Positions 6,690 through 12,311 of a DNA stretch of 22,928 nucleotides are shown piece by piece. A program made the position numbers and the translations under genes. Position 1 is the stretch's first letter; the number at the start of each line of letters is the position of its first letter. The notes below the pieces were generated by a model. The model was given only the letters and a program-made list of their open reading frames with translations, was not told where the DNA came from and did no database searches. The stretch is from a virus, in the IMG/VR virus record IMGVR_UViG_3300030116_005575, positions 1 to 22,928 of that record. One strand, given 5' to 3'.

Positions 6690-7192
6690 CGGGTTGTCAG
6701 CTCAGTAATGACTTGACCGATAGCCGTTGTATTGGCTCCACCAGGCGAGATTGTGACAGCGCCTGCCGTACTGATGGTGCCAGCCAAACCAGTATTAACG
6801 CCTGCGGCTGTGCTGGTGACATCACCAAAGGCTGGAACGGCACCAACAGTTGGAGCTGACGTTGGAACGGTGTCGCCTTGGGTGTAGCTGGTTGCAAAGC
6901 TGAAAGCGTTACCAGCAGTCTTTTGGGTTGCGTCTGGAATCGTGATGGCATTGACGCCATTAGTTGCAGCTCCCAAGCCGCCAAGAGCATCGCTGGTGGT
7001 TGAGCCACCTGCAGTCACGCTGGTGTCCACTCCGGTTCCGCTGATGCTGTAACTGTTTCCAACCCTGATGGCGCGTGTGGACGCTCCACCGACATCGAGT
7101 TGTACTGAGCTTTGGATTTTGTGGGTTAAATCAGCACGAGCAGGCAAAGCGGCTGCCAATGTGATGCCCAGTACCAAAAGTGAGCGGTTCAT
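6686..7192 (-). CDS. Secreted Gly/Thr/Ala-rich hypothetical protein
   Basis: This 168-residue protein has a signal peptide, MNRSLLVLGITLAAALPARA, before DLTHKIQSSVQL. The mature part is low-complexity and beta-like, rich in Gly, Thr, Ala and Val (STTSDALGGLGAATNGVNAI, AGTISTAGAVTISPGGANTT) with hardly any charge. This suggests an extended or stacked beta structure, as in surface or fibre-like proteins. It carries the same 'YSISGTGVDTS' type motif as its downstream neighbour. Four-base overlaps link it to the genes on both sides, so it is one member of a coupled four-gene leftward operon. Function is unknown. Confidence 0.78.
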   Translation of the reverse strand: MNRSLLVLGITLAAALPARADLTHKIQSSVQLDVGGASTRAIRVGNSYSISGTGVDTSVTAGGSTTSDALGGLGAATNGVNAITIPDATQKTAGNAFSFATSYTQGDTVPTSAPTVGAVPAFGDVTSTAAGVNTGLAGTISTAGAVTISPGGANTTAIGQVITELTTR

Positions 7193-7671: not shown

Positions 7672-8421
7672 GTGGCGTCCGGCATTATCCAGTTGACCTT
7701 GCTGCTGCTAGCCATGGGTCTTGCCCTACTGCCGTTTTTCCAGTTCTTTCGTGGCACGCCCCACCAGCTGGCTGCAATTAAACAACTTGAGGAGTCAATG
7801 CCAGCGGAGCTACTGGAGGAGCACGAAGCTGATTGGTTTCAGGCGTGGAAGGAGAGTGGATATGACCAGCAGATCTTCATGCCTTACTTCAAGCAGCTCG
7901 ACAACAAGACTGGAACGGGATACCGCGAGTGTTTCAGCTCAGCGGCTGCGATGGTGGCAGCGTTTTACAAGAAGGTGCGTACAGATGATGAGTACAACGA
8001 GATCCGCGCCAAATATGGGGACACCACGTCAGTAGAGGCTCAGCTGGCAGCGTTACGCAGCCTGGGTCTGGAAGCTGAGTTTCGGAAAGATGGTGACGCT
8101 GACATGGTGGAGCTTGAGATTGAAGCTGGCAGACCAGTGCTGGTGGGCTGGTTGCACGCCGGAAACATGCTTTTAGGCGAACCACCAATGTGCAATGGCT
8201 TGGGCTGCGGGCATTGGAGTGTGATCAGTGGTTACGCAGGCAAGAACAGCAACGATCCAGAGTGGATCATGCAAGATCCTCGTGGCTACCCAGAAATGGA
8301 GAAAGGTGGGCATAGCAACCCGCATCTGGGACGCAACGTTCGAGTAAGGCAGGCTGCGTTCTATCAGCGTTGGCAATCTGAAGGTCCAAGAACTGGTTGG
8401 GTGATTCTCGTCAACGAGTGA
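7672..8421 (+). CDS. Membrane-anchored C39-like (papain-fold) cysteine peptidase
   Basis: This 249-residue protein starts at GTG, with no gap after the previous stop. Residues 4-26 form a signal-anchor helix (GIIQLTLLLLAMGLALLPFF). The rest fits a C39-type papain fold: catalytic Cys87 in GYRECFSSAAAM, His181 in GCGHWSVISGY and Asp202 in MQDPRGYPE, in the expected order. A helical block VEAQLAALRSLGLEAEF and 'GRPVLVGWLHAG' also match the fold. C39-like peptidases cleave peptides or act on precursor proteins; in phages they are suspected in envelope or virion processing. Here it could be a periplasm-facing peptidase or a lysis aid. The triad is seen in the sequence; substrate and role are inference. 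Confidence 0.8.
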   Translation: MASGIIQLTLLLLAMGLALLPFFQFFRGTPHQLAAIKQLEESMPAELLEEHEADWFQAWKESGYDQQIFMPYFKQLDNKTGTGYRECFSSAAAMVAAFYKKVRTDDEYNEIRAKYGDTTSVEAQLAALRSLGLEAEFRKDGDADMVELEIEAGRPVLVGWLHAGNMLLGEPPMCNGLGCGHWSVISGYAGKNSNDPEWIMQDPRGYPEMEKGGHSNPHLGRNVRVRQAAFYQRWQSEGPRTGWVILVNE

Positions 8422-9277: not shown

Positions 9278-9532
9278 TTAATCCTTGTTGAACAAGTAGT
9301 GCAGTCTCTTGAATTCATGAATGGGTGTTGCTGTTAGGATGCAGACTTCAACATTGCAGGACAAAGCGTTAATAACTTGTCGCTCCATGTAGTCCATGTT
9401 GGACTCATAAGTAACTTGTTCAACACTTAAGGGTTTGTTGTCAAGATCAAATGAAGTGAAGCGAGTTATTGCCAACGGGCAGTGTTCGTCGCTGATTTGA
9501 CAGTATTGAAGATTAACGGATCTAGTCGCCAT
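9278..9532 (-). CDS. Hypothetical protein overlapping the MKEIKTY-type RHH gene
   Basis: This 84-residue frame from ATG 9532 overlaps the previous gene's end by 11 bases, a coupling typical of this phage. The product is MATRSVNLQYCQISDEHCP, a beta-like middle (RFTSFDLDNKPLSVEQV), then MERQVINALSCNVEVCILTA and a C-terminal FNKD. It contains four Cys but no paired CxxC motif. No family is recognised. Strand, overlap and protein-like composition support it; the absence of any recognised family lowers certainty. Confidence 0.45.
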   Translation of the reverse strand: MATRSVNLQYCQISDEHCPLAITRFTSFDLDNKPLSVEQVTYESNMDYMERQVINALSCNVEVCILTATPIHEFKRLHYLFNKD

Positions 9533-9785
9533 TCCTTGAGCTGAAGAGTTCGTTGAAGACAGTGGCGACAAGGCTTTCAGCCTGCTGCCTATCCAGACCA
9601 TAGCTGGACCGACGACGCACCTTCGTAACAGCTTTATGAAAATCACTGGTTGTAAGCCCTAGGTGATTGGGTGGTTGCATGAGGCGTTCACGAATCAATT
9701 CAGATCGGTGAATACCTTTTTCTTTAGCTTCGATGGAGAGCCGATCGGCCAGCTCTTCAGGAAGGTAGGTTTTGATTTCTTTCAT
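9522..9785 (-). CDS. Ribbon-helix-helix (CopG/MetJ-like) DNA-binding protein
   Basis: This 87-residue protein begins MKEIKTYLPEELADRLSIEA, an almost ideal RHH opening: strand EIKTYLPEE, helix 1 to about residue 24 (DRLSIEAKEKGI), turn, and helix 2 HRSELIRERLMQ. The remaining half (LTTSDFHKAVTKVRR, then GLDRQQAESLVATVFNELF) is helical and resembles the C-terminal extension of small cyanobacterial RHH proteins I know from memory. RHH proteins bind operators as dimers of dimers and often regulate their own operon or act as antitoxins. No toxin-like gene is obvious beside it; the overlapping 9278-9532 product is the only candidate partner. Confidence 0.75.
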   Translation of the reverse strand: MKEIKTYLPEELADRLSIEAKEKGIHRSELIRERLMQPPNHLGLTTSDFHKAVTKVRRRSSYGLDRQQAESLVATVFNELFSSRNGD

Positions 9786-9794
9786 GGGGGGATG

Positions 9795-9938
9795 TTACTT
9801 ACGCCTCTTAGGTTTCTTTTTCCTTTGAGACGGTTTGATACGCGGTTTGTCAGGTTTGGACGCGATGCGAGCGAGAGTCTCGTGGTAGCCAGGTGGTTCT
9901 GGGACGCCTGAGCGCTCCAAGATCTTGGTCCAGTTCAT
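9795..9938 (-). CDS. Small basic protein (47 residues)
   Basis: A short frame from ATG 9938 encodes MNWTKILERSGVPEPPGYHE, a helical ARIASKPDKPR segment and a very basic tail ending KKKPKRRK. The 'M-x-W-x-x-I-L-E-R-x-G-V-P-E-P-P-G' opening resembles, from memory, small cyanophage hypotheticals. The tail suggests nucleic-acid contact. It lies between the primase-helicase gene (stop 10032) and the RHH gene (start 9785), on the same strand, and so probably in the same leftward transcript. Confidence 0.65.
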   Translation of the reverse strand: MNWTKILERSGVPEPPGYHETLARIASKPDKPRIKPSQRKKKPKRRK

Positions 9939-9957
9939 CTCTCACACGCGTATAGAT

Positions 9958-10127
9958 GTCCAGAGTGTCCAGGGCGCTCCAAAATGCAGTGATAGCAATG
10001 GATTAGACCCTGGACAGTAGGGGTGGACAGGTTAGATGTGTCCAGCCTCTTCGCTAGAAAGCTCAATCTCAACCGCTCCATCAAACAGACCCTGGACACC
10101 TTTGCTTTGTCCAGGGGTAGTGTCCAG
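9958..10127. repeat. Cluster of TGTCCAG / CTGGACA repeats
   Basis: TGTCCAG occurs at 9958, 9966, 10039, 10108 and 10121, and its complement CTGGACA at 10010 and 10092: seven copies in 170 bp, where chance predicts about 0.02. TGTCCAGGG (9966-9974) and CCCTGGACA (10008-10016) form perfect nine-base inverted arms. The cluster spans the gap after the primase-helicase stop and the last codons of that gene, its C-terminal tail. It could be an iteron-type or protein-binding region. Confidence 0.6.
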
Positions 10128-12311
10128 AGGTAGATCCCGCTCCAGGACTGGATTTATTGGAACGGTGGACACTTTCTTTCCCTCTCCACGTGCGAGGACA
10201 GCAGTCCAAGTCTTAGTTTGAGAGCCCTTTGGAACGTCAGAGACAATCAAGCCGCGTTTCTCCAGCCGTTGGAGCGATTTCTGGATTGCAGCTGGCTTGC
10301 CATTAATCAGGTTGTCGCAGACAAGGTCGTCTTTGGTGCGGGACTCGGGGTAGACGACACGGAGTTTTTGCAGGACGCGATCAGTGACAGAAGCGGGAGA
10401 GGTGTTGGTCTCGTCTACCTCGGGGGTGAAGTCAGAGATGGTGAAGCTGAGGTCGTCCTGCATCTGCATGACCAGTTGGGTGCCCATCCGTCCAGAGCGT
10501 GACTTCTCGATGGTGATGAGGCGGCTATGAGCGCCTACAACGCCTCTCTCTTCGTCTGTGGGCTTACGGAGCGCCCAGGTCTCGTCTACGGCGTCTCTAA
10601 TGGCTGAGGTGCCTCTGAAGCCACCATTCTTGTTGGCGTGGTGAACGATGAGGATGGTGGCCTTGGGGAAGAGGACACCGTTGTTCTTGGTCAGCCAGTA
10701 CAGCGGTGTGGCGAAGTCAGACTTGTTTTCATCAAAGGCTCGACCACCGGAGCAGCCAATCAGCGAGTCAATAACGACCAGCTTTGGCTTGTGCTTCTTC
10801 ATCAGCTTGATGAACTGGGCATAGCGCTGAAGCTGCCAGTCCGTCTGAATCATGCTGTCTTTGGTGATGGGGAAGTCCACCTCTTGCAGCTGTTCCTTAA
10901 GCTGAACGAGCGGCTGATCGCCATTCAGGAGAACAACTGGTCCTTGTTGCACTGGAACGTGATTTCCACGGACAACAAAGGGCTTGCCGGTTGCGATGTG
11001 CTTAGCAAGAGCCCAGGCGGACATGGATTTACCGTCACCACCAGCGCCGTAGATCAGGACAACGGAAGGGTGAGGCAGGACATCAGGGATGAGGTATTCA
11101 CGCTCGGTTTCAGTCTCCATCAACTCCTGAATGCTCATGATGTCCTTGGACTCTTCAAACGAGATCTGATCAACGATCAGCTTTTCGAGAGCAGTTTGGT
11201 CTCTGTAACCCGCTTGCAGAGCAAGGGTATTGAGCTTGTAGTTGACCTCTGCGGGGTTATCAAGCTCAAGGATCTTTTTGGCACGGCGGATGACTTCATC
11301 GAAATCGAGAGTGGCCTGCCGAATCTCTTGAACTTTCTTCTCTTCAGCGGCCTTTACGATCTTTTTTGTGTCTTCCGAAAATCGGTGCCTCTCTGGGTCA
11401 GCACGATCTGCCATCCAGATGAGGGTGCCTAGACCGACTCCAGAGCCTTTGAACGAGTACCAGGGCTCTTCGCATGGGTTCTCGTTATCAGCCCATTCAG
11501 AGGCGAAGTCAGCGTCCTCTGCGGACCAGGCTGACCAAAGAACAAGACCGTGATCGTTCGGCAGTGCCGAGTGGATCGCCATCCCGACTTTGACCCAGTG
11601 ATCACGAGAGCCTTTGCCACGGGGAGGGATGACCTTGAGGCAGTCCTGAATGATCTGAGCAACCTCGTCTTGAGTTCGATCAGTGAAATCAAGGTCGCGT
11701 TTGATCATTGCTTTGGGCGGCTGTTTCATTTCCGCCAGCAACCAGTCTGGAGCCTGAGGAATATCTGTCAGATCTCCTTCTAGTTCGTATTGCCCTGGAA
11801 CGGAGACTTTGCCACCGGGGTAAGCGCCATAGATGACGCCTTGGCGATGGGAGTTCCAGAGGATCTCGTAATCTGCATCGCCCAGACCACGACCTTCTAC
11901 TTGAGACCAGAGTTCTTCTGGGACGCGGAAGATGTATTTCGCGGCGTTGGCCTTAGTGGACGTGACGCAAGGGGCGTGGTGGAGCGTCTGACCGTGCTGC
12001 TTAAGGAGACGCTTGAGGTTGCGGTCTACGTCAAGGATGACGATGCCATTGCCACGGATACCTGTGAAGACGCCTACGGCTTTGAGGTCTGGGTTGCGCT
12101 TGACCGCGAGGGCAACGTCTGCCGGAGTGAACTTGTCGTCAAAGGAATCTTCCAGGGGATTTTTGCCGGTAGCAGGGCGACCGGACTTCATGCGAGCCCC
12201 TTTGGCGTAGATGGGCGCGTAGACAAGGCCCTCGGGGAGATCGTTGACGAACTGGTTGAAGTTCATGTAGTATTTGAAACGAGTAGGACACATCCCGGAA
12301 GGCCCATTCAT
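10032..12311 (-). CDS. Bifunctional primase-polymerase / RecA-fold helicase
   Basis: This 759-residue replication protein would prime and unwind DNA at the phage fork. About residues 20-195 form a Prim-Pol-type domain: VFTGIRGNGIVILDVDRN (acidic pair D94/D96) and NSHRQGVIYGAYPGG. About 215-305 look like PriCT-2 (IPPRGKGSRDHWVKVGMAIH, with WSAWS). About 405-630 form an AAA_25/RecA-like ATPase: Walker A GAGGDGKS at 422-429, Walker B LVVIDSL at 511-517, and IVHHANKNGGFRGTSAIRD. About 640-705 form a winged-helix-like C-terminus, then a low-complexity tail. Met16 (position 12266) is an equally likely start because it matches the usual N-terminus of such proteins. It is divergent from the SSB-like gene across a 127-base promoter region. 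Confidence 0.88.
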   Translation of the reverse strand: MNGPSGMCPTRFKYYMNFNQFVNDLPEGLVYAPIYAKGARMKSGRPATGKNPLEDSFDDKFTPADVALAVKRNPDLKAVGVFTGIRGNGIVILDVDRNLKRLLKQHGQTLHHAPCVTSTKANAAKYIFRVPEELWSQVEGRGLGDADYEILWNSHRQGVIYGAYPGGKVSVPGQYELEGDLTDIPQAPDWLLAEMKQPPKAMIKRDLDFTDRTQDEVAQIIQDCLKVIPPRGKGSRDHWVKVGMAIHSALPNDHGLVLWSAWSAEDADFASEWADNENPCEEPWYSFKGSGVGLGTLIWMADRADPERHRFSEDTKKIVKAAEEKKVQEIRQATLDFDEVIRRAKKILELDNPAEVNYKLNTLALQAGYRDQTALEKLIVDQISFEESKDIMSIQELMETETEREYLIPDVLPHPSVVLIYGAGGDGKSMSAWALAKHIATGKPFVVRGNHVPVQQGPVVLLNGDQPLVQLKEQLQEVDFPITKDSMIQTDWQLQRYAQFIKLMKKHKPKLVVIDSLIGCSGGRAFDENKSDFATPLYWLTKNNGVLFPKATILIVHHANKNGGFRGTSAIRDAVDETWALRKPTDEERGVVGAHSRLITIEKSRSGRMGTQLVMQMQDDLSFTISDFTPEVDETNTSPASVTDRVLQKLRVVYPESRTKDDLVCDNLINGKPAAIQKSLQRLEKRGLIVSDVPKGSQTKTWTAVLARGEGKKVSTVPINPVLERDLPLDTTPGQSKGVQGLFDGAVEIELSSEEAGHI

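Follow-up and report, generated by a model that had tools for sequence, protein, structure and literature searches.

A cluster of short repeats overlapping the 3′ end of a primase-helicase gene is very probably, judging from comparative sequence analysis, the site at which DNA copying starts in a group of marine cyanobacterial viruses. We examined this cluster in a 22.9-kb virus fragment from IMG/VR (IMGVR_UViG_3300030116_005575, whose full 22,928 nucleotides are called the window below) and in relatives carrying a homologous primase. It is likely that the repeats form the iteron array of a phage origin overlapping the 3′ end of its own initiator gene, and that the primase-helicase itself reads the iterons. 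The preliminary description of the window had proposed an origin or a replication control site here; an iteron origin is the best supported reading, owing to site positions kept among relatives and to a protein residue that tracks the repeat sequence, while the expectation of a GC-skew switch failed and the RHH protein is not a universal partner. A limited literature search found no description of this phage origin.

The genes of the window include those for a terminase, a tail fibre, an exonuclease and a cyanophage outer-membrane-like protein. Because the kin of the latter are almost confined to Synechococcus and Prochlorococcus phages, the host is probably a marine picocyanobacterium. Positions 7672-8421 encode a predicted C39/C70-like (papain-fold) cysteine peptidase of 249 amino acids. 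Rfam and tRNA searches returned zero matches, and a Rho-independent terminator was looked for and not found. Cyanophage S-2L was discarded as a model: its terminase is 44% identical, but its PrimPol has no profile match and it lacks such iterons.

Organization of the repeat cluster

The main features of the locus, in positions of the window, are the following.

9522..9785, minus strand: small RHH/CopG-like protein (Pfam)
9947..9959, minus strand: conserved ACATCTATACGCG between the last iterons and the next start codon, kept in the iteron classes near the window
9957..10171, no strand: proposed replication origin, two inverted iteron modules (> 44 < 13 < 16 >), with equal spacing across iteron classes
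9957..9963, plus strand: iteron TGTCCAG, exact copy, conserved in the clade
9966..9972, plus strand: iteron TGTCCAG, exact copy
10010..10016, minus strand: iteron TGTCCAG, exact copy
10023..10029, minus strand: variant iteron TGTCCAC, its place taken by a regular iteron in the CA and CC classes
10039..10045, plus strand: iteron TGTCCAG within the last primase codons, exact copy
10092..10098, minus strand: iteron TGTCCAG in the primase coding tail, arm of a 9-base inverted repeat, exact copy
10108..10114, plus strand: iteron TGTCCAG in the primase coding tail, opposite arm of the 9-base inverted repeat, exact copy
10121..10127, plus strand: iteron TGTCCAG in the primase coding tail, exact copy
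10165..10171, minus strand: variant iteron TGTCCAC, at the place (-137) of a regular iteron in the CA and CC classes
10032..12311, minus strand: primase-helicase gene, 759 amino acids, with Prim-Pol (AEP), PriCT-2, RecA-type AAA_25 helicase and C-terminal winged helix (Pfam), its product the proposed replication initiator
10185..10403, minus strand: C-terminal winged-helix DNA-binding domain, amino acids 637-709 (AlphaFold2, H1-H2-H3-wing)
10281..10283, minus strand: codon of Q677, called residue X here, a recognition-helix residue tracking the iteron class (column association and model)

TGTCCAG occurs eight times in the window, and the seven TGTCCAG/CTGGACA copies first noticed in the cluster were all recovered, at 9957-10127; in 200,000 random placements, seven of eight copies were never so close together. 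The perfect nine-base inverted arms lie at 10090-10098 and 10108-10116. The placement beside the end of the primase-helicase gene holds as well, the interval in fact overlapping the last part of the gene (stop at 10032).

The layout is clearest in the relative L021, where the sites relative to the primase stop are -137>, -92<, -79<, -63>, -11<, +4>, +17> and +61<, and that of L087 and L037 is nearly the same. All these places are present in the window, two of them as TGTCCAC. The array thus consists of a four-site module (> 44 < 13 < 16 >) and an inverted copy of it, an arrangement common to AG, CA and CC loci, the classes being named here by the last two bases of the repeat. Spacings of 43-45, 13, 15-16 and 28-29 recur throughout the 205 loci compared.

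A GC-skew change had also been anticipated, its absence in relatives being named as evidence against the reading. Neither the window nor any of four whole relatives has a switch at the cluster, cumulative skew being monotonic in all five, and the sign of the skew differs between clades. GC skew was therefore dropped as an origin signal, and the case for an origin consequently rests on other evidence.

Concerted change of the repeats among relatives

An initial primase scan returned 65 loci. Later scans, based on alignment and on divergent members, brought several hundred records with many contigs repeated among them, and the set used comprises 205 distinct homologous loci, of which 190 were classed and 15 have weak repeats. 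Two relatives (L127 and L128) are on contigs binned to bacterial MAGs, one of a proteobacterium and one of Microbacteriaceae; these are probably mis-binned phage contigs.

All clades read closely have short repeats near the 3′ end of the primase gene, and the last two bases of these repeats differ by clade: the classes are TGTCCAG, TGTCCCA, TGTCCCC, TGTCCAC, TGTCCTA and TGTCCCT. Endings agree within a locus, a mean of 75% of TGTCC cores sharing one two-base ending. The expectation that the repeats would be kept while the coding tail varies is borne out for their position, with coding tail and repeat sequence both changing. Exact TGTCCAG is indeed missing from many relatives that keep the primase, which had been named as evidence against an origin, but a concerted variant stands in its place. 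Such concerted replacement is stronger evidence than plain conservation. Within the AG clade (n = 30 loci), conservation of third codon positions is 100% within iterons and 77% across the domain-coding part, and therefore selection acts on the DNA.

Mixed TGTCCTA/TGTCCCA arrays were seen in four loci (L119, L121, L125 and L273) with near-identical winged helices; those of L119 and L125 differ at two positions, one of them adjoining residue X. A specificity shift under way is possible in these arrays.

A recognition-helix residue tracks the iteron class

A full-length structure model of the primase-helicase matches the DnaB and RSF1010 RepA helicases. The winged-helix domain was modelled with AlphaFold2 from 46 sequences (mean pLDDT 79, about 90 in helices), and MarR-type winged helices were the best Foldseek matches of the predicted domain. 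Q677 corresponds to residue 46 of the domain model, within the predicted recognition helix (residues 42-55), where it precedes an invariant Lys. Three relatives (L056, L065 and L066) carry an insertion of ~19 residues (TPFTPAK.ADPGPLLHSVLC) directly after this helix, and their iterons are still TGTCCCA.

The identity of residue X follows the last two bases of the iteron. Of the 63 loci with A at iteron position 6 (AG and AC classes), 59 have Gln or His. Arg accounts for 79 of the 83 loci of the CA class and for all five of the TA class (84 in total, the TA class comprising few loci), and Lys for all 39 CC and CT loci. The rule is broken in eight of the 190 classed loci (L160, L196, L290, L310, L295, L197, L201 and L202). 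Contacts of Arg or Lys with G and of Gln with A are usual protein-DNA chemistry. Among 559 alignment columns, that of residue X ranks first for iteron class and for the last base, and third for position 6, behind two columns in the tail encoded by iterons. The other high-ranking columns lie mostly in this same iteron-encoded tail.

On a tree of 86 primase bodies built with the winged-helix domain left out, 17 class changes are needed. Independent pairs on this tree, small in number (six and three), agree in all six cases for CC/CT with Lys (p = 0.03) and in all three for A6 with Gln/His (p = 0.25, the minimum for three pairs), with none opposed. Near-minimal contrasts point the same way: L191 and L192 have helices alike except at X (R to Q) and one distal position, and their iterons change from CA to AC, while in the pairs L146/L148 and L167/L169 X changes from R to K and the iterons from CA to CC.

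Polarity of the TGGARCG motif

A second motif, TGGARCG, has 59 copies in the window where 6.5 would be expected (~9-fold), a count reached in none of 100 shuffles; 46 of them are on the plus strand and 13 on the minus strand. Excess and strand polarity extend over the whole window and to its relatives. The reversed copies in the cluster are the following.

9913..9919, minus strand: reversed TGGAGCG, exact copy
9975..9981, minus strand: reversed TGGAGCG in the 44-bp gap of one module, exact copy
10074..10080, minus strand: reversed TGGAGCG at the centre between the modules, with a matching place in L087, L037 and L113
10138..10144, minus strand: reversed TGGAGCG in the 44-bp gap of the other module, exact copy

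These four and the forward copies at 10158, 10230 and 10270 are exactly as first described; the total of reversed copies had been given as eleven and is thirteen. Polarity had been said to return to plus left of about 9.2 kb. It is mixed down to ~7 kb, with reversed copies at 7082, 7371 and 7537, and mostly plus beyond. The run of five reversed copies that includes 9381 has p = 0.013 under shuffled orientations, so that the reversal is only modestly unusual when judged in the window alone.

The relatives make the local reversal firm. Over 71 loci, the density of reversed copies is 4.37 per kb up to 250 bp from the primase stop and 0.35 per kb elsewhere, and in the window clade and in the distant clades alike, equal-sized random sites never gathered as many (0 of 2000 draws). 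Within 300 bp of the repeats, reversed and main copies are nearer to 1:1 than to a full flip. For the distant clades, tests of the excess of reversed over main-orientation copies give weak results in single genomes (combined p 0.24). Across 16 whole or near-whole relatives one orientation prevails, the bias being strongest for ~10 kb on the side of the repeats where the primase gene lies; the peak of reversed copies is at the repeats themselves.

The reversal could be unrelated to the origin and reflect codon use or a host Chi-like motif, and in coding regions of either strand TGGARCG does favour one frame (Gly-Thr/Ala, or Val/Ala-Pro on the other strand). We consider this unlikely. Plus-strand copies are about equally frequent in plus-strand genes (18) and minus-strand genes (20), on which ground codon use was rejected as the source of the polarity. 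A host-driven motif was rejected on the basis of five other cyanophages checked, which have no comparable excess, and of two MAG bins holding relatives, where TGGARCG is ~1.5-fold over control in one and without excess in the other. Reversed copies moreover gather at the origin in both clade groups.

TGGARCG may instead be a candidate priming motif of the PrimPol, a role that would jointly account for its polarity, its clustering at the origin and its phage specificity. NrS-1 PrimPol recognizes the template motif TTTGGTTA, and pRN1 ORF904 recognizes GTG (PMC8718748). The NrS-1 enzyme is likewise a phage PrimPol with a helix-bundle domain and a helicase part, the priming motif proposed here being a candidate; a profile of 47 relatives matched no PDB chain at E 0.001, and thus gave no sequence kinship to NrS-1 polymerase. 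As a tentative proposal, TGGARCG could be the template recognition site of the PrimPol: replication would proceed mainly in one direction, its fork leaving the iterons by way of the primase gene, and copies all along the genome would mark the lagging-strand template. The leading strand would then be primed from the reversed copies at the origin. Helicases would be loaded without directional preference by the dyad-symmetric iterons, and direction would come from the polar motif. If this is true, the genome holds two codes for one enzyme, iterons for the winged helix and priming sites for the PrimPol part.

Other readings of the repeats

The repeats might be operators for a transcriptional regulator, either the RHH protein or the primase as a mere autorepressor, rather than an origin. 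They do lie just upstream of the next small gene, beside the conserved ACATCTATACGCG, and the RHH gene is nearby. We nevertheless find this reading quite improbable. RHH homologues were detected in 80 of 188 loci and in none of the 20 TGTCCAC loci, and the RHH protein, at first put forward as a possible iteron partner, is thus not universal and was dropped as the iteron binder. In distant clades the array lies wholly within the primase coding tail, ~80-320 bp before the stop; the residue that tracks the iterons is in the primase; and eight sites in two inverted modules exceed the usual operator.

It is very improbable that the association of residue X with the iterons reflects only physical linkage, that is, one inherited or recombined block without specific recognition. 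Residue X and the iterons do lie within ~350 bp, and the locus L114 combines a CA-type primase body with a CC-type domain and repeats. In the near-minimal contrasts the recognition helix is altered at X and at few other positions; separate clades show the same pairing of residue and bases, and columns nearer to the repeats rank below X for class. L114 and L115, whose primase bodies group with the TGTCCCA clade and whose domain and iterons are of the TGTCCCC kind, are likely a natural swap of domain and repeats as a module. Since the winged-helix domain and the repeats adjoin, joint recombination could contribute part of the association.

A cruciform or stem-loop of the inverted repeats, as proposed for pRN1, where a stem-loop lies downstream of the PrimPol-helicase-winged-helix gene (PMC4234260), with the concerted changes as compensatory pairing, is very improbable as the functional element: in two classes folding of the strand is more stable than that of shuffled sequences (z -3.1 and -3.4), but pairing partners are unlike between them, same-orientation copies, which cannot pair with one another, change too, and the recognition-helix residue tracks the iteron sequence.

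Proposed mechanism and significance

In the iteron-origin reading, the primase-helicase would bind TGTCCNN iterons via its C-terminal winged helix, as the covariation suggests, the last two bases being read with the help of residue 677. The two inverted four-site modules may then load helicase rings on the DNA, as their geometry and the SaPI Rep parallel suggest, and the PrimPol domain of the same polypeptide would prime synthesis. Because the binding domain and its sites adjoin, specificity could evolve through point changes or be exchanged with both as a single unit.

Sites, geometry and a candidate specificity residue were thus read off natural variation in ~200 viral loci, and with these in hand the question of origin recognition is reduced to a small binding experiment. 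The locus offers a probable case of an origin nested in the coding sequence of its own initiator, and a rule for locating origins in uncultured phages.

Comparison with known initiators

The closest functional parallel is the SaPI Rep/ori of staphylococcal islands (also SCCmec Cch2), likewise an initiator helicase with a C-terminal dsDNA-binding domain, here predicted, and short iterons directly downstream of the initiator gene. In the phage the array overlaps the last coding bases and runs past the stop, or lies wholly inside the gene; the helicase has a DnaB/RepA RecA-type fold (Pfam AAA_25), not a DUF927 or D5/Primase_Cterm helicase; PrimPol and helicase share one polypeptide, and the carrier is a phage. 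SaPI-type origins have an AT-rich core between iteron sets. None is found here, the AT fraction across the array being ~0.46-0.5 with no AT-rich unwinding element. The phage module would appear to work like SaPI Rep/ori and is not filed as a SaPI-type member, because the helicase type differs and the AT-rich core is absent.

By domain order (AEP, PriCT-1/2, RepA/DnaB helicase and C-terminal winged helix), the protein fits the PrimQH-type PrimPols of the PrimPol-PV1 supergroup. In the part of the source available for that type (PMC5862659), the winged helix is suggested to take part in origin recognition and no sites are given, whereas sites and a tracking residue are identified here.

In the PLE satellites of Vibrio cholerae, the DNA-binding domain of RepA and the origin covary and are swapped as a module, and the origin iterons are targeted by a phage nuclease (PMC8263062). 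PLE RepA has a RepA_N domain, ~30-bp semi-palindromic iterons and a separate intergenic origin, in contrast to the 7-mers and point-level shifts described here. The present loci offer a set of naturally occurring changes of specificity in a replication initiator, to be compared with PLE RepA and its origin-targeting nuclease (PMC8263062).

The pRN1 replicon also joins PrimPol, helicase and winged helix in one protein, ORF904, with an origin just downstream of the gene (PMC4234260). The helicase there is SF3 and the origin a stem-loop without iterons, against a RecA-type helicase here. RSF1010 RepA-RepB′-RepC likewise combines iteron recognition, a RepA-fold hexameric helicase and a dedicated primase, distributed over three separate proteins where the phage has one.
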